A stretch of DNA of 64,000 bases, taken from NCBI GenBank assembly GCA_944322255.1, contig CALUOK010000003.1:62001-126000 (forward strand), in the 5' to 3' direction. This stretch comes from Candidatus Methanomethylophilaceae archaeon (GTDB taxonomy: Archaea > Thermoplasmatota > Thermoplasmata > Methanomassiliicoccales > Methanomethylophilaceae). Positions 3,404 to 11,513 of the stretch are shown piece by piece. Position 1 is the stretch's first letter, and every line of letters starts with the position of its first letter. The notes below the pieces were generated by a model. It was not told the origin of the DNA. It saw only the letters and a list, made by a program, of their open reading frames with translations, and ran no database searches. The position numbers and the translations under genes are program-made.

Positions 3404-4324
3404 ATGATACTCAATACAGGCGGGCGCACGGACACGGTCCAGTACTACACCGAATGGCTGCTGAACCGCTTCTCGGAAGGGTATGTCCTCTCCCGCAATC
3501 CCCTGTTCCCGAACAAGGTCACGCGCTACGAACTGACTCCGGACAAGGTGGACTGCGTGGTGTTCTGCTCCAAGGACTACCGCCCCATTCTGCCGAGGCT
3601 GCATGAGATCACGGACCGCTTCAACACCTACTTCCACTACACCATAACCGCCTACGGCAGGGATGTGGAACCGGGGGTCCCGTCGATAGATGATAGCATC
3701 GACACCTTGATCGAGCTCTCCGGGATCGTTGGCAGACAGCGCGTGGCCTGGAGGTACGACCCGGTCCTACTGACCGACAGGTACACGGTGGAGACACACA
3801 TGGAGACCTTCGAATCGATGGCTGAAAGGCTACATCCGCACATCGATCGTTGCATATTCAGCTTCGTGGAGATGTATCGGAAGCTGGAGCGCAATATGCC
3901 CGAGATCCTGCCGCTTAGTGACGAAGACAAAGACGACTTGGCGAGGGGACTGGGCGAGATCGCGAAGCACCACGACATCGCGATCCAGACCTGCGGGACG
4001 AACGGGGATTTCACCCGCTACGGCATCATGAAGTCGGGATGCATGACGCTGGACATCCTCGGCAGAGCCAACGGTGTGGAGTTCAGGGACCTGAAGCACA
4101 AGGGAATGCGCGAGGGATGCCACCGCATAGAGAGCCGCGACATCGGCGCGTACGACACCTGCCTGAACGGATGCAGATACTGCTACGCCAACACCAATCC
4201 CAACAAGGCTCACGAGAACGTGCTGCTCCACGACCCGAAATCCCCGCTCATCCTCGGGCATCTGAGACCCGAGGACACCGTCATACAGGGCGCGCAGAGA
4301 TCTTTCCTGAAGGTGAAGCCGTGA
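3404..4324 (+). CDS. DUF1848 family protein with CxxxCxxC cluster
   Basis: Start placed at ATG 3404 (MILNTGGRTDTVQYYTEW), because DUF1848 proteins begin with this kind of (S/G)RTD-x(2-4)-Y motif and an AGGAGG ribosome site stands at 3392-3398. A longer frame from 3305 has no family support. The product is 306 residues. A CLNGCRYCYAN motif near residues 253-262 gives C-x3-C-x2-C, the geometry of a radical-SAM-type iron-sulfur cluster. Biochemical function of DUF1848 is unknown to me. The stop overlaps the GTG start of the next radical SAM gene by 4 bases, so the two proteins are made together. Confidence 0.8.
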   Translation: MILNTGGRTDTVQYYTEWLLNRFSEGYVLSRNPLFPNKVTRYELTPDKVDCVVFCSKDYRPILPRLHEITDRFNTYFHYTITAYGRDVEPGVPSIDDSIDTLIELSGIVGRQRVAWRYDPVLLTDRYTVETHMETFESMAERLHPHIDRCIFSFVEMYRKLERNMPEILPLSDEDKDDLARGLGEIAKHHDIAIQTCGTNGDFTRYGIMKSGCMTLDILGRANGVEFRDLKHKGMREGCHRIESRDIGAYDTCLNGCRYCYANTNPNKAHENVLLHDPKSPLILGHLRPEDTVIQGAQRSFLKVKP

Positions 4325-5211
4325 CCGACCCGCTGATAAGACACATCGATACGAAGGGTGTGATCTCGAAGACCGACCTCCCGGTGTGCGACTACGCCGC
4401 GAACCCCTACGTCGGATGCACCCACGCCTGCAGGTACTGCTACGCATCGTTCATGAAGAGGTTCACCAACCACCCGGAACCGTGGGGGACGTTCCTGGAC
4501 GTGAAGCACTGGCCGGAGATCCGCGACCCGTCCAAGTACGCCGGGAAGGAGATCTTCATAGGCTCGGTCACCGACCCCTACAACCCCCAGGAGGCGGAGT
4601 TCGGACGCACCAGGGAACTCCTGGAGCAGCTGAGGGGAAGCGGTGCGAAGCTGAGCATCGCCACCAAGTCCGACCTGGTCATCAGGGACCTGGACCTCAT
4701 CAGGGAGTTCCCGGACGCTCGCGTGTCGTGGTCGATCAACACGCTGGACGAGTCCTTCCGTGCGGACATGGACTCCGCCGTCACCATAGTGAGGAGGCTT
4801 GAGGCGATGAGGAGGTTCCATGACGCAGGGGTACGCACCACCTGCTTCATCTCGCCGATATTCCCGGGGATCACCGACCCGAGGGAGATCATACTGAGGG
4901 CCCGCGACCGCTGCAACCTCGTGTGGCTTGAGAACCTCAACCTCAGAGGTTCGTTCAAAGCAGACATCATGGGCTACATATCCGAGAGACACCCCGACCT
5001 GGTGTCGCTCTACGACCGCATATACGGCGGAAGGGACATGAGCTACTGGAGCGACCTGGACACCGAGATGGCCGGGTTCTGCCGGGAGCAGGGGCTCGAA
5101 TACGTCACCAACGACGACAGCATGTCCAGGCCGTTCGACGACCCGCCGATCGTTGTAAACTACTTCTTCCACGAGAGAATCAGGAAGTCGTCGAAGAACG
5201 GAGGTGCCTGA
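4321..5211 (+). CDS. SPL-like radical SAM protein (COG1533)
   Basis: Start placed at GTG 4321, which overlaps the previous stop (GTGA). The ORF can be extended upstream only as a shadow of DUF1848. The 296-residue product has CTHACRYCYASF at residues 33-44, the C-x3-C-x2-C of radical SAM enzymes, and resembles the spore-photoproduct-lyase-like COG1533 group (ATKSDLVIRDLDL, TNDDSMSRPF near the C-terminus). COG1533 contains DNA-repair lyases and also enzymes of unknown substrate, so 'SPL-like' is a family name only. It ends one base before the ATG of fpg, giving a three-gene operon. Confidence 0.85.
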   Translation: MTDPLIRHIDTKGVISKTDLPVCDYAANPYVGCTHACRYCYASFMKRFTNHPEPWGTFLDVKHWPEIRDPSKYAGKEIFIGSVTDPYNPQEAEFGRTRELLEQLRGSGAKLSIATKSDLVIRDLDLIREFPDARVSWSINTLDESFRADMDSAVTIVRRLEAMRRFHDAGVRTTCFISPIFPGITDPREIILRARDRCNLVWLENLNLRGSFKADIMGYISERHPDLVSLYDRIYGGRDMSYWSDLDTEMAGFCREQGLEYVTNDDSMSRPFDDPPIVVNYFFHERIRKSSKNGGA

Positions 5212-6042
5212 ATGCCCGAGCTCCCGGAGATCGAGACCATGCGCAGGGCGATACGCCCAGGCGTCATGGGAAGAAGGATCACAGCGGTCGAGGTGAGACA
5301 GCCGAAGGTCGTGGCCGACCTCGATGCGACGGAGTTCGCGAACCGCCTGCTCGGCCGCACATTCACCGACCTGACCCGCCGCGGGAAGGCCATAGTTGCA
5401 TGGATGGACGACGGACAGAGGATGGTCATGCGCATGGGGATGACGGGATGCGTCGTCGTCGCCCCGCACGACCATCCGGAGGACAGGCACACCCACATCG
5501 TGATATCGTTGGACGACGGGGACGAGCTACGCTTCTCGGACATGCGCCGCTTCGGACGCTTCTGGCTGTTCCGCGCGGATGATGAGGACACGAGCGGGAT
5601 CCGGAATCTCGGCCCCGAACCCGACGACCCTGCCCTGACCGCGGAGTACCTGGAGGAACGCCTCGGCGGCTGCCGCCGCGCGATCAAGACCTGCCTCCTC
5701 GACCAGTCGGTCGTCACCGGCATCGGCAACATCTACTCGGACGAGATCCTCTTCGAATGCGGCATCGACCCCTCGTGCCAGGCATACCGGCTGGACCGGG
5801 CCGACTGGGAGAAACTCGCGGATGAGATCCCCCGCTGCATGAGGTTCTTCGTGGAGAACAACGAGATGAGCCCCGACGAGTGGTTGGAGTCGATGGGACG
5901 TGAGTACCGCAACACCCCTTACATCCGGATATACGGACACTCCGGCGAGCCATGCCCCGTCTGCGGGACAACCCTTGTCAGGAAGGTGGTCGGAGGCCGC
6001 AGCAGCGTGTCCTGCCCCATGTGCCAGAGGGAACACCGCTGA
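5212..6042 (+). CDS. mutM: formamidopyrimidine-DNA glycosylase (MutM/Fpg)
   Basis: A full-length 276-residue Fpg that removes 8-oxoguanine and ring-opened purines and nicks the abasic site. The N-terminal MPELPEIETMRR supplies the catalytic Pro2 and Glu3, the beta-hairpin lysine is in TRRGKAIVAW, the helix-two-turn-helix asparagine is in GIGNIYSDEILF, and a C-terminal C-x2-C...C-x2-C zinc finger (CPVC...CPMC) closes the protein. Fpg is mainly bacterial and patchy in archaea, so acquisition is likely (established distribution plus inference). It follows the radical SAM gene with no gap, so it shares its transcript. Confidence 0.96.
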   Translation: MPELPEIETMRRAIRPGVMGRRITAVEVRQPKVVADLDATEFANRLLGRTFTDLTRRGKAIVAWMDDGQRMVMRMGMTGCVVVAPHDHPEDRHTHIVISLDDGDELRFSDMRRFGRFWLFRADDEDTSGIRNLGPEPDDPALTAEYLEERLGGCRRAIKTCLLDQSVVTGIGNIYSDEILFECGIDPSCQAYRLDRADWEKLADEIPRCMRFFVENNEMSPDEWLESMGREYRNTPYIRIYGHSGEPCPVCGTTLVRKVVGGRSSVSCPMCQREHR

Positions 6043-6066
6043 CCGACCCCGGACCGGCGGATGCGG

Positions 6067-6642
6067 TTAGTCGATCCTGACGACCTTCACTCCGGCCGAT
6101 GCGGCGGCCTGGCGTATGGCGCCCTCCGAGTAGTCCTTCTTGACATACACCTCGATGAAGCCCTCGCGGAAAGCCACGTCCTTCACACCGAACTTGGAGA
6201 TGAGCGACCTGTAGACCAGGCCCTCATCGATCTCCCCCTCGTAGCGGACGGCGAAGTAGTCCATCCTCTCGATCTTAAAGATGACCGGCCTTGTGCCGTC
6301 GCTGCAGCAGGCGATCATGACCCTCTCATCGTCCATCCAGCCCTTCATAATGGGGGCGCCCTGGAGGCCGGCGTAGATGTACCTGGACACGGCGTCCCAG
6401 AGCTCGGAGCAGTGGGGAACGTTGGGTCCGCCAGCTATGCCGTCCACGGAGTGGTCGGATTTGACCAGGGTATTCAGGCCCATGCACCAGAAGCTGTCCC
6501 TGCCGTCGTAGCGCTCGAAGACGAACTCGTCCCCGACGTTGTAGCAGGGGCACGGGCCCGCCTCCGGGTCCGCGCAGTACTGCTCCTGGAGCTCAGGATA
6601 GACCTTCTTGTCGATGACCGTCAACTTGACCTTGTGCTGCAT
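6067..6642 (-). CDS. TIGR04076-family protein
   Basis: Start placed at ATG 6642 (MQHKVKLTVIDKKVYPELQE) because a TATA-like TATATCG on the complement lies at about 6660-6667 and the longer frame upstream only shadows the acetyltransferase gene. The 191-residue product has the TIGR04076 pattern: a short N-terminal strand, a YCADPEAGPCPCYNVGDEF cysteine/GDEF region (residues about 23-41), and CCSDGTRPVIFK near residue 110. The last 60 residues are extra. The family has no established function; some members sit near redox enzymes. Confidence 0.7.
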   Translation of the reverse strand: MQHKVKLTVIDKKVYPELQEQYCADPEAGPCPCYNVGDEFVFERYDGRDSFWCMGLNTLVKSDHSVDGIAGGPNVPHCSELWDAVSRYIYAGLQGAPIMKGWMDDERVMIACCSDGTRPVIFKIERMDYFAVRYEGEIDEGLVYRSLISKFGVKDVAFREGFIEVYVKKDYSEGAIRQAAASAGVKVVRID

Positions 6643-6719
6643 GGGACGGTGGATTGCGCGATATACAATAGATGTTCTGATGGGAACTTCGCGGGATCTC
6701 GGGTGATCTGCCCGAGCTC

Positions 6720-7139
6720 TCAGAGAACCTTCCTCATCATGATGTGCGGGCACCACTCGTCCAGGTACTCGTCGCCGTAGGCCTCGTACCCGCAGGACTC
6801 GTAGAACCCCCTGGCCCTCGTCTGCGCGGACAGGCGGACCTCGTGCCATCCCCTGGAGACGGCGACGGATTCGGCCTCACAGACCATCATCCTCCCGAGG
6901 CCCTCCCCGCGGCGGTTACTGTCCACAGCCAGGCGTCCGAGGCTACAGGAACGGCCGTCACCATCCGGGATCAGCCGGCACACGGCCACCGCGTCGTCCC
7001 CGTCGTACATGGTTATGTGCAGGGACACGGCATCATCCTGGTCGAACTCCACCACGAAACCCTGCTCCACCACGAAGACCTCCGTGCGTATGCGGACCTC
7101 GTCGTCGCAGAACTGGCGTGAAACCTCGAAGCGGAACAT
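6720..7139 (-). CDS. GNAT-family N-acetyltransferase
   Basis: A 139-residue single-domain GNAT protein. Motif A, the acetyl-CoA pyrophosphate loop, reads LAVDSNRRGEGLGRMMV (R-x-x-G-x-G-x variant) around residues 71-87, followed by the typical helix and an AQTRARGFYESCGYEAYG motif B near residue 106. The ElaA-like N-terminus (RTEVFVVEQGF) suggests a small-molecule or protein N-acetyltransferase. It lies 33 bases downstream of tRNA-Pro on the same strand. Substrate unknown. Confidence 0.85.
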   Translation of the reverse strand: MFRFEVSRQFCDDEVRIRTEVFVVEQGFVVEFDQDDAVSLHITMYDGDDAVAVCRLIPDGDGRSCSLGRLAVDSNRRGEGLGRMMVCEAESVAVSRGWHEVRLSAQTRARGFYESCGYEAYGDEYLDEWCPHIMMRKVL

Positions 7140-8715: not shown

Positions 8716-9021
8716 ATTTCTGACTCTCCCGACATTTCGGTAAACGGTTTGGGTAAGGGCTCGCTATAGTGGACTTGTTTATAAAGGTATGCCACGCACG
8801 GACGCATGTTATTATAGAGAAAAGAGGAGCGCTCGGATCTGTCCTGAACGGCCCTGCCTCCGCTTCCGGCGTGCGACCGCCACACACGTATTAGGGGGTG
8901 CCGACGCATGTGCCAGACATCCGAAAAATGAACCGTTTTGACATCCGGCGGAACCTACTGCCTGTTCCGGAGGCGCGCCACAGACTACTAATAGACGGGC
9001 GCGATACCTCGCGTGATTATT
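8716..9021. promoter_or_regulatory. divergent intergenic region with rpl18e TATA box
   Basis: About 300 bases with no convincing gene. On the complement, TTTATAAA (8778-8785) is the rpl18e promoter. Toward the plus gene, a weak TATA-like ACTAATAGA (about 8985-8994) lies about 30 bases before the ATG at 9022. The middle (8800-8960) shows no repeat or hairpin I can support. Confidence 0.5.
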
Positions 9022-10068
9022 ATGATAAGGTTCGGTCCCGCGGGAATCCCTCTGTCATGCAAAGGTCGCACCCTTGAAGACGGCATCGAAGACGTCCACA
9101 ACCTCAGCCTGGGCGCCCTGGAGATCCAGTTCGTACGTCCCGGGTCCTTCACCAGGCCCCCCGAGGACGAGGAGATCGGCATGACCCTGAAGGACATCGA
9201 GGAGGACTTCGTCATCGAGATCCTCAGGGACGGGGAGTCCATCTGCGACCCCGACGAGCCCATCGATGAGGACGACGACCTCGTCTTCATGCCCTCCGGC
9301 GTGGCCGCCACCTACGGGGACCTGTACACCATCGGCGAGATGGCCAAGAGGCTGGACGTCAACATGTCCATCCACACCCCGTACTACATGGACCTCGGGT
9401 CCGACGACGAGTTGTCCAACGAGTGCATGAACAGCATCAGGTACGCCGGACTCATCATGAACGCCCTCGACGGCGACATAGTCGTCACCAGCCTCGGACT
9501 CTACGACGGGAAGCGCTCCGAGGAGGACATCGACAACTACATCTACAGCAACATCGCGGACCTCATGGACTGGTGGCAGGGCAACGGGCTCAAACCCAGG
9601 CTCGGCATCGAGATCACCGGCCAGCAGGACGTGTTCGGGTCCCTGGACCAGGTCCTGGACATCTGCGAGCAGATCGACGGCCTCACACCCGTCATCAACT
9701 TCTCCCATCTCCACTCCCGCACCAACGGCTCCCTGATTGACATGGACGACTTCCTCAACGTCCTCGAGATGGTGGAGCCCATGAGCAACGGGCAGATCCA
9801 CACCGCCTTCGCCGGGGTCGACTACATCGACGGGAACGAGAAGAGGCTGACCCCCATCAAGAAGGGCGACCTCAAGTTCGAGCCCCTGGCCGAGGCCCTG
9901 ATCGAGATGAAGCCCAACTGCACGGTCATATCCACATCCCCGCTCCTGGAGCACGACGCGGTCTACATGAGGGTCATCCACGAGAGGGTCCTCAGCAAGA
10001 AGGTCGCCAAGGACCTCAAGGAGAAGAGGAAGGCCGAGGCCAGCGCCGCGGCCGCCACCGGTGAGTGA
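9022..10068 (+). CDS. endonuclease IV-like TIM-barrel protein with acidic insertion
   Basis: A 348-residue protein from ATG 9022 (MIRFGPAGIPLSCKGRTLED), aligned by eye with the 40192-41001 protein, which starts MRFGPAGYPSAGKTPEG. Both are AP-endonuclease-2 type TIM barrels: SIHTPYYMDL (metal His), GIEITG, INFSHLHSRTNG and STSPLLEHDAV are the conserved strand ends. This copy carries an extra acidic stretch of about 50 residues (EDEEIGMTLKDIEEDFV... to ...MPSGVAATYGDL) between strands 2 and 3, and a basic-Ala tail. Whether it is a nuclease or a sugar isomerase is open. It overlaps the next gene by 8 bases. Confidence 0.75.
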   Translation: MIRFGPAGIPLSCKGRTLEDGIEDVHNLSLGALEIQFVRPGSFTRPPEDEEIGMTLKDIEEDFVIEILRDGESICDPDEPIDEDDDLVFMPSGVAATYGDLYTIGEMAKRLDVNMSIHTPYYMDLGSDDELSNECMNSIRYAGLIMNALDGDIVVTSLGLYDGKRSEEDIDNYIYSNIADLMDWWQGNGLKPRLGIEITGQQDVFGSLDQVLDICEQIDGLTPVINFSHLHSRTNGSLIDMDDFLNVLEMVEPMSNGQIHTAFAGVDYIDGNEKRLTPIKKGDLKFEPLAEALIEMKPNCTVISTSPLLEHDAVYMRVIHERVLSKKVAKDLKEKRKAEASAAAATGE

Positions 10069-10609
10069 GTTGGACGCCCCTTTCGAGACCATAATCGAGG
10101 GATGCCGCTCGGCGGTCGGATCCGCCGACCCGGCCTGCACCGAATCCCTCATCGAGGGCATCTTGGACAGCCGCAAGGTGTTCGTCTACGGATCCGGCAG
10201 GTCCGGACTCGTGGGGCAGCTCTTCGCGGTCCGCCTGGTCCAGCTGGGGCTCGACGTGCACTTCGTCGGCGAGATGACCACGCCCATAATCGGCAAGGAG
10301 GACCTGACCATCCTCATCTCGTACACCGGGAAGACGTCCTCCGTCGTTCAGACCGCCCAGATAGCCAGGAGGATCGGCTCCCGCGTGATCTGCATAACCG
10401 GCGCCGCCGGAAGCCCCCTCACGAAGGTGTCCGACACGTCGGTGGTCCTGGACGTACCCCGCAGCGACGACCTCGGGAAGGCTGCGCCGCTGGGCACGAT
10501 ATTCGAGAACTCCTCGCTGCTCTTCTTCGACTGCATCGTCAGCGAGCTCATGTCCCGCACCGGCAACACCGAGGAGGACATGAGGAACAGGCATGCGATC
10601 TGGGTTTGA
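10061..10609 (+). CDS. hxlB: 6-phospho-3-hexuloisomerase (SIS domain)
   Basis: A 182-residue single SIS-domain protein starting at GTG 10061, overlapping the previous gene. Motifs typical of the PHI family are present: FVYGSGRSGLVGQLFAVRL, VHFVGEMTTP, ISYTGKTSSVV and the C-terminal HAIWV. PHI interconverts hexulose-6-phosphate and fructose-6-phosphate; in many archaea the reverse ribulose monophosphate route supplies ribulose-5-phosphate (established). No hexulose-phosphate synthase of the usual type is in the window, which makes the coupled TIM-barrel gene upstream worth attention. Confidence 0.85.
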   Translation: MSELDAPFETIIEGCRSAVGSADPACTESLIEGILDSRKVFVYGSGRSGLVGQLFAVRLVQLGLDVHFVGEMTTPIIGKEDLTILISYTGKTSSVVQTAQIARRIGSRVICITGAAGSPLTKVSDTSVVLDVPRSDDLGKAAPLGTIFENSSLLFFDCIVSELMSRTGNTEEDMRNRHAIWV

Positions 10610-10610
10610 C

Positions 10611-10955
10611 TCACTCCGACATGACTGCCGAAGCCCTTCTGAGCGCCCCGTCCTCGGAGACGAACAGCGAGAACTCCCCGGCGTAGGGGTCCACGACCAC
10701 GAGGACCCCATATGGGAACGACTCCGTGAACGATGCGACCAGTCCCTCATCGGGTTCGGTCCCGCCGTCCTCCATCACGACGGACATGCCGACCCTCGTA
10801 CCCGAGCCGGTCAGCTCGTAGAACCTCCCGGCATCGTCGGACGCCGCCCTGCCCAGTATCGGTTCGGACATCGATCCGTCCTCCGCGGCGCATAAGATGG
10901 CTTCCACGGCGGCCGGACACAGGATCACGTCCGCTCCCTTCGCGAGTCTTCCCAT
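10611..10955 (-). CDS. MPN/JAB-like protein lacking the metal site (tentative)
   Basis: A 114-residue protein. Its layout resembles a compact MPN (JAB) domain: an opening strand-helix VILCPAAVEAILCAAE, a SEPILGR segment where the catalytic glutamate strand would be, and a terminal YGVLVVVDPYAGEFSLFVSE like the usual 'vVDP...g.i..f' end of JAB proteins. The His-x-His-Pro and Ser-x2-Asp metal ligands are not found (the region reads VGMSVVMEDGG...PDEG), so it would be inactive. It follows, 18 bases downstream, a ubiquitin-fold gene. The fold call is by eye only. Confidence 0.4.
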   Translation of the reverse strand: MGRLAKGADVILCPAAVEAILCAAEDGSMSEPILGRAASDDAGRFYELTGSGTRVGMSVVMEDGGTEPDEGLVASFTESFPYGVLVVVDPYAGEFSLFVSEDGALRRASAVMSE

Positions 10956-10973
10956 GGGCCCCGATTCCGCAGG

Positions 10974-11216
10974 TCATTTGAAAAACCCTTCGGGGTCCGG
11001 GATGACGTCCACCACGTCCCCGTCCGAGATGCTGGAGCCGACGGACTGCTCCGGATCCAGGAGGCTGTACCCGTTCCTGAGGATGAAGCCGTCGAACCCA
11101 AGCGCCTCCCTCACGGCGGCATCCACGTCCCCGATCTTGTCGTCCTCCCCGAACTCCATCCTGAGATTCGATCCGCGATTCCTGCAGAACAGTGTGAACC
11201 TTACCATTTCCATCAT
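10974..11216 (-). CDS. ubiquitin-like beta-grasp protein (80 aa)
   Basis: Eighty residues with the ubiquitin order of elements: strand VRFTLFCRNRG, strand LRMEFGEDDKIGDV, helix DAAVREALGF, then FILRNGYSLLDPEQSVGSSI and SDGDVVDVIPDP, which mimic ubiquitin's 'l.gr.L.d...l...i.dGd.i.v' segment. There is no C-terminal Gly-Gly (it ends PEGFFK), unlike SAMP modifiers, so conjugation is doubtful and a YukD/EsaB-like role is possible. Start may be any of three close ATGs (11216, 11213, 11207). It is divergent from the zinc-ribbon membrane protein and followed by the MPN-like gene. Confidence 0.65.
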   Translation of the reverse strand: MMEMVRFTLFCRNRGSNLRMEFGEDDKIGDVDAAVREALGFDGFILRNGYSLLDPEQSVGSSISDGDVVDVIPDPEGFFK

Positions 11217-11309
11217 CCTGCCGCACGATGTACGGCGTTTCTACACTGCTTCGGGAGATTAAAAGCGGACCAGCTACGCTTTAATAACTAGCAAGGTTAA
11301 TGGCGGGAC

Positions 11310-11513
11310 ATGGCGGGCATAAGATTGCCGGAGCACTCCCACTGCAAGTTCTGCGGAGACCCCATCCCGTTCGGGGAGGAGTACTGCGACGAGGAGTGCA
11401 GGAAGAACGAGGCGGCACGCGAAGCGGCCGAGAAACGCAGGGACATGATGTTCTACGTGTCCTCAGGGGTCGCCATCGTCGTGATCGTGGTGGCTGGACT
11501 GATCATCTACTGA
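11310..11513 (+). CDS. DUF2116-type zinc-ribbon protein with C-terminal membrane anchor
   Basis: A 67-residue protein: HSHCKFCGDPIPFGEEYCDE at residues about 10-28 followed by ECRKN gives a C-x2-C...C-x3-C zinc ribbon, then a charged helix, then a membrane segment FYVSSGVAIVVIVVAGLIIY at the extreme C-terminus. This is the architecture of the archaeal DUF2116 family (tail-anchored zinc ribbon). A TATA-like CTTTAATAAC lies at about 11279-11288. Its 3' end overlaps folP by 11 bases on the opposite strand. Confidence 0.8.
   Translation: MAGIRLPEHSHCKFCGDPIPFGEEYCDEECRKNEAAREAAEKRRDMMFYVSSGVAIVVIVVAGLIIY

Follow-up and report, generated by a model that had tools for sequence, protein, structure and literature searches.

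The window considered here is a stretch of 64,000 nucleotides from a Candidatus Methanomethylophilaceae archaeon (contig CALUOK010000003.1), in which two short, intact open reading frames lie side by side on the minus strand. The first (10974..11216) encodes a ubiquitin-like protein (Ubl) of 80 residues as called, lacking a terminal Gly-Gly, and the second (10611..10955) encodes a 114-residue protein with a predicted MPN fold and no metal ligands, referred to below as pseudo-JAMM, from which the segment of about 28 residues preceding the HSH motif is also missing. The 18 bases that separate them (10956..10973, minus strand) mark the site of an E2 gene in sister genera, and the leader region of the Ubl gene (11217..11309, minus strand) marks the site of an E1 (ThiF) gene, which in those genera sits between the Ubl gene and a gene for a DUF2116 protein. 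In the window, the pair is divergent from this small DUF2116 gene (11310..11513, plus strand), a syntenic neighbor encoding a tail-anchored treble-clef protein, and convergent with a gene for an HxlB-like SIS-domain protein (10061..10609, plus strand), which serves as a marker of synteny and in trees. Beside the latter lies a gene for a xylose-isomerase-like TIM-barrel protein (9013..10068, plus strand), a further marker that was used to fetch named relatives. Elsewhere in the window, an open reading frame of 260 codons (6067-6849, minus strand) has no Pfam match at an E-value of 5.

The comparison covers 60 genomes, of which 31 belong to the genus of the window (its own genome included) and 29 to other genera of the same order. 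The relatives fetched by the neighboring gene comprise the MAG UBA71 together with MAGs from ruminants, deer, and other gut sources, labeled as Methanomethylophilaceae or Methanomassiliicoccaceae; the genus, presumably GTDB UBA71, consists mostly of gut-dwelling methanogens.

Single-sequence searches of Pfam, NCBIfam, and PADLOC return no significant match for either the Ubl or the pseudo-JAMM of the window. As a family, the genus Ubls align with the order-wide Ubl family with an hhalign probability of 99.3 (E = 3.6e-20), and the order-wide family matches polyubiquitin (PDB 4ksl) weakly (E = 1.8e-4) and scores under the gathering threshold against the Pfam ubiquitin family (E = 2.7e-4). In a structure predicted for both genes as one read-through protein, the Ubl half adopts a beta-grasp with the strand and helix order of ubiquitin, and its Foldseek matches are ubiquitin, NEDD8, and SUMO (TM-scores mostly 0.64-0.70 by target length, E = 0.006 or weaker). 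These results support the assignment of the protein as a ubiquitin-like beta-grasp protein on the basis of its predicted fold. Conservation within the genus points to M4, at position 11207, as the probable start, giving 77 residues. At the other end, the protein terminates in PEGFFK, so that its tail reads PDP-EGFFK in place of PDPEGG. Gly-Gly in register is absent from every genus Ubl, and the PDP is mostly retained; past it, the tails vary freely in length and sequence, with no conserved C-terminus. Having neither a C-terminal Gly-Gly nor a cognate E1 or E2, the window Ubl does not qualify as a conjugatable modifier.

The kinship of the pseudo-JAMM with JAMM proteins is visible only through a genus profile, intermediate forms, and structure: a canonical JAMM profile at E = 0.01 does not find the genus proteins, and the genus profile aligns with canonical JAMMs with an hhalign probability of 92.3 (E = 5.6e-7). 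Applied to loci outside the genus, the profile built from genus sequences alone gives 43 matches in 32 of the 50 loci having a JAMM match, all on the JAMM, and no match off JAMM positions among 10,859 open reading frames. The AlphaFold model (pLDDT 94.1, pTM 0.87) superposes on CSN5 and Rpn11 with Z-scores of 12-13 (top Z 12.8, over 105 of the 114 residues, rmsd 2.7), and Foldseek and VIA-align matches include Rpn11, CSN5, and BRCC36. The alignment underlying this model included canonical JAMMs and intermediates among its 37 rows, which could bias it toward the MPN fold; a genus-only alignment, used for the read-through model, gave the same order of MPN elements, with block means of at least 90 in that half. 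That fused model has a pTM of 0.57 and shows no confident interface between its halves. When Ubl-only, JAMM-only, and fused rows were mixed, MAFFT superposed the two families, and that alignment was left out of folding.

All 28 genus proteins lack both metal histidines, whereas 17 of 17 canonical relatives have the two, and the motif E-Xn-H-S/T-H-X7-S-X2-D of JAMM/MPN+ metalloproteases is absent from the genus proteins. The former active site is occupied by the motif EGGTEP, which is common in the genus and not invariant. The model thus depicts an MPN fold without a metal site, as in MPN-minus subunits. On these two proteins the initial annotation, made by eye, holds up throughout: both frames are intact at the stated positions, one product has a predicted ubiquitin fold and no Gly-Gly, and the other has a predicted MPN fold and no metal histidines. 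Elsewhere in the genome of the window, a generic Prok-JAB domain protein gives a partial match (contig C5, 84225-84380; profile positions 60-113).

A search with the window Ubl finds a match in 47 of the 60 genomes and in 29 of the 31 within the genus. The pseudo-JAMM is found in 28 of the 31 by direct search, and likewise with the genus profile, including all 17 genus genomes with completeness of at least 90% and contamination of at most 5%; the same searches give no match among the 29 genomes of other genera. In two genus genomes (G011 and G015), neither the Ubl, the pseudo-JAMM, nor a close HxlB was found, and in a third (G028) the Ubl is accompanied by no recognizable pseudo-JAMM frame (E = 0.018). 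The partner lies at the same locus in 28 of the 29 Ubl-bearing genus genomes, overlapping or within 79 bases in 27 of them. The gene order, namely folP and DUF2116 (where present), Ubl, pseudo-JAMM, SIS gene, and TIM-barrel gene, is the old order, with no space left for E1 or E2. The only insertion seen between the two genes in the genus is one of 1 kb at locus L146 (G027), where a gene resembling phospholipase D or cardiolipin synthase (named by eye) occupies about 3816-5270. In G026 (L145; L168:2641-3333), both proteins are encoded in one uninterrupted frame, possibly a natural fusion. At several genus loci (L027, L061/L154, L133/L225, L139/L179, L144/L192, L145/L168, L146/L150, and L147), the pseudo-JAMM frame is not closed by a stop codon where it normally would be and continues into the antisense of hxlB.

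The DUF2116 zinc ribbon had been suggested to belong to the same system as the pair, a suggestion that does not survive the comparison. The zinc ribbon is missing from four genus members that carry the pair (G017, G018, G026, and G030), while G040 and G052 encode it and lack the Ubl; it is therefore a mere neighbor.

In sister genera, the same site holds a complete conjugation cassette. All 18 out-group loci compared carry E1 (ThiF), Ubl, E2, and JAMM in that order, and in the loci checked their neighbors are again the SIS gene and the TIM-barrel gene. The E2 cysteine, the HSH-S-D motif of the JAMM, and the PDPEGG end of the Ubl are invariant in 16-row out-group alignments. One out-group set matches ThiF, UQ_con, and JAB in Pfam, with the ubiquitin family just under threshold, and the best PDB matches are Rpn11 for the JAMM (1e-26) and a ubiquitin-conjugating enzyme for the E2 (2e-12). 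Profiles built for the E2, the cognate E1, and the canonical JAMM all give the same count, with matches in 25 of the 29 out-group genomes and in none of the 31 genus genomes. All 31 do have ThiF-type matches, but these are distant paralogs only (best E-values from 1e-13 to 1e-30); a generic Prok-JAB protein is encoded elsewhere in 29 of the 31. An archaeal Ub-E1-E2-JAMM cassette is therefore present in the 18 compared out-group loci and absent from the window and its genus. In G031, G040, and G052, E1, E2, JAMM, and Ubl have all been lost. An E2 is found by profile search in 77 of 200 genomes of the class, which indicates that the cassette is old. Synteny and profile searches show that the window pair is the remnant of an E1-Ubl-E2-JAMM operon, which most of the Methanomassiliicoccales still have intact. 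The initial annotation had compared the pair with conjugation/deconjugation systems, and such an origin is demonstrated by the syntenic complete cassettes, just as the expected joint conservation is seen within the genus, where 28 of 31 genomes hold the pseudo-JAMM and 29 of 31 the Ubl beside the same neighbors. In another family of the class, the E2 domain of one E2-profile frame (L119, G064, 3908-4627) is preceded by a Ubl-like stretch, and its active-site region is altered (GGDIHCEY); the frame is possibly a Ubl-E2 fusion.

Intermediate states in relatives trace the steps by which parts were lost. Eight loci (L163, L191 in G076, L193, L198, L206, L207, L221, and L105 in G110) combine a JAMM without HxH with an E2 that retains its cysteine; at seven of them the Ubl can be seen as well, each time with Gly-Gly at its end. 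Further reduced loci hold a degraded E1 and a Ubl without Gly-Gly but no E2 (L210), E1 or its remnant and a dead JAMM without Ubl or E2 (L203 and G187), or only a Ubl without Gly-Gly in register and a dead JAMM (G139). A lone Ubl cut before PDPEGG stands beside hxlB in G049 (L101, 4011-4259), without E1, E2, or JAMM, and represents an independent loss that spared the Ubl. At two loci (L130 in G187, 5982-6662, and L210, 7274-7936), the E1 frame is open although its nucleotide-binding motif GAGALGN is unrecognizable.

A tree of the TIM-barrel and HxlB markers groups the window genus with a support of 95 and a UBA593-like clade with 100, and places L163 among Methanoplasma-type loci with active JAMMs (support 99), which means that the JAMM was inactivated at least twice. 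A single inactivation shared by the window genus and the UBA593-like lineage was considered, but the branching of these two relative to the Methanoplasma group has a support of 21, and a shared event is not shown.

The state of the Ubl tail is associated with that of the JAMM. The comparison covers 67 non-genus loci that have an E2 and whose Ubl tails are distinct. In all 7 whose JAMM is dead, no residue follows the Gly-Gly of the Ubl, which is true of 20 of the 60 with an active JAMM (Fisher p = 0.001, a value that overstates the association because the seven come from two lineages only). The other 40 Ubls with an active JAMM carry 1 to 10 extra residues past Gly-Gly, and the near relatives of L163 (L042, L108, L110, L111, and L164) have one extra residue each. 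The coincidence of a dead JAMM with a mature Ubl end fits a JAMM that was once needed for Ubl maturation.

Both genes of the pair are coding and under purifying selection. Substitution rates were compared for 35 genus pairs with HxlB identity above 72%, and among the closest 14 of these 35, dN/dS could be computed in 12 for the Ubl, giving 0.06-0.36 and one value of 0.73, and in 11 for the pseudo-JAMM, giving 0.10-0.38, as compared with 0-0.23 for the TIM-barrel gene and 0-0.18 for hxlB; in most pairs, the Ubl and pseudo-JAMM evolve faster than these neighbors. Of 14 tests on 7 pairs, each with 300 neutral simulations, 13 gave an observed value reached by at most 2 of the 300, the exception being the Ubl of G004-G021, which is indistinguishable from neutral.

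These data bear on whether the pair is a functionless relic in slow decay under weakened constraint, kept because its loss is recent or neutral. The divergence relative to the neighbors, the near-neutral Ubl pair, the run-on pseudo-JAMM frames, the unrecognizable partner in G028, and the loss of all four cassette genes in G031, G040, and G052 are what such decay would produce. Nevertheless, it is an unlikely account, as the pseudo-JAMM frame stays open in 28 of 31 genomes and the Ubl frame in 29 of 31 even where synonymous sites are near saturation, pN/pS lies well under neutral in 13 of 14 tests, a new motif, EGGTEP, has arisen where the active site was, and the predicted pseudo-JAMM fold is well formed. 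The retention of a dead protease and a Ubl adjacent under selection points instead to a function without enzymes.

Two further accounts grant the proteins a function and differ in its nature. Each protein may have been recruited separately to an unrelated role, their adjacency being inherited synteny. Outside the genus, the partners have indeed been lost singly, leaving a pseudo-JAMM without a Ubl in G187 and L203 and a Ubl without a JAMM in G049, which speaks against their being retained together; within the genus, however, all but one of the 29 genomes with a Ubl still encode the partner alongside it, and one reading frame holds both in G026, so that separate recruitment seems rather improbable. 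The Ubl with its non-Gly-Gly end could also still be conjugated or loaded with sulfur by a generic MoeB/ThiF-type E1, the E2 being unknown or absent. Although ThiF-family paralogs in all 31 genus genomes and the generic Prok-JAB protein in 29 would supply candidate enzymes, this is highly improbable given tails that vary freely past PDP, with no conserved C-terminus and no Gly-Gly in register, and searches that find no E2 in the 31 genus genomes.

The preferred reading, which we regard as likely, is that a conjugation cassette has decayed, with the Ubl and pseudo-JAMM surviving as a non-catalytic, probably non-covalent pair. The JAMM lost its metal site and the preceding segment, a state seen in living relatives that still have E1, E2, and a Ubl ending exactly in Gly-Gly. 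Its peptidase activity may have served Ubl maturation and would have become dispensable once the gene encoded the mature end. The genus of the window has lost E1, E2, and the Gly-Gly, so that the Ubl would no longer be conjugable by known chemistry. The pseudo-JAMM may still have the surface with which the old enzyme bound the Ubl, and the pair would act as a non-covalent binding or scaffold module without covalent transfer; adjacency and purifying selection would then most likely reflect continued binding of the Ubl by the pseudo-JAMM. On balance, the pair would most plausibly serve in binding or regulation. A fuller version, offered tentatively and at somewhat less than an even chance, is that a conjugation cassette became a non-enzymatic protein pair, with the JAMM inactivated at least twice (in the window genus and UBA593-like lineages, and in L163) by losing the metal site and, with it, the preceding segment. 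The inactivated protein would have served first as a non-catalytic partner beside a complete E1-E2-Ubl(GG) set and later, in the genus of the window, as the partner of a non-conjugable Ubl, steps to which the same reserve applies.

Non-catalytic uses of the MPN fold are known in eukaryotes, in which the MPN-minus subunits Rpn8, CSN6, eIF3f/h, and KIAA0157 employ it for binding or scaffolding and are joined to an active MPN-plus partner within large complexes. Several MPN-minus subunits occur in entries among the structural matches of the pseudo-JAMM. Unlike these eukaryotic pairs, no canonical JAMM of the same family is left in the genomes of the window's genus. The desampylases HvJAMM1 and PfJAMM1 and their SAMP proteins are, like the window pair, archaeal JAMM-Ubl pairs, and the PfJAMM1-SAMP2 complex (5lda) is among the structural matches. 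These enzymes are catalytic and act with SAMPs that end in Gly-Gly, whereas the window JAMM lacks the metal site and the window Ubl lacks Gly-Gly.

A Ub-E1-E2-RING operon with an Rpn11-like JAMM is described in Caldiarchaeum subterraneum, where this JAMM is demonstrated to cleave a C-terminal extension to expose Gly-Gly (PMC5654768; PMC6043591). That operon and the sister-genus cassette share Ubl-GG, E1, E2, and an Rpn11-like JAMM, although no RING gene was noticed between E1 and JAMM in the cassettes of the order; the genus of the window lacks E1, E2, Gly-Gly, and the metal site. The tail association fits a maturation role such as that shown for Caldiarchaeum Rpn11 (PMC5654768; PMC6043591). 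Also in print are archaeal "JAMM-3" proteins and the JAMMs of Ub-E1-E2 operons (PMC6043591), and Methanomassiliicoccus luminyensis has a published Rpn11-like JAMM, WP_019177758 (PMC4453063). These are of the active type, unlike the window protein without metal ligands, and very likely represent the active ancestral type, given the shared order and Rpn11 as the best solved relative (1e-26). The intact cassette of the order is already of a known kind and may be listed in the survey of archaeal clusters (PMC5654768). In the open-access literature searched, no description was found of the decayed retained pair, the intermediates, or the tail association.

Together, these loci form a natural series within one archaeal family, which starts with a complete, eukaryote-like ubiquitin cassette and ends with a Ubl and a dead JAMM without conjugation enzymes. 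The series isolates the question of which roles ubiquitin-like proteins and MPN domains have without chemistry, ties the loss of the JAMM to a Ubl gene already encoding the mature end, and offers short protein pairs suited to immediate in vitro testing. If the proposed reading is true, the pair would be a prokaryotic counterpart of the eukaryotic MPN-minus scaffolds and binding-only ubiquitin domains.
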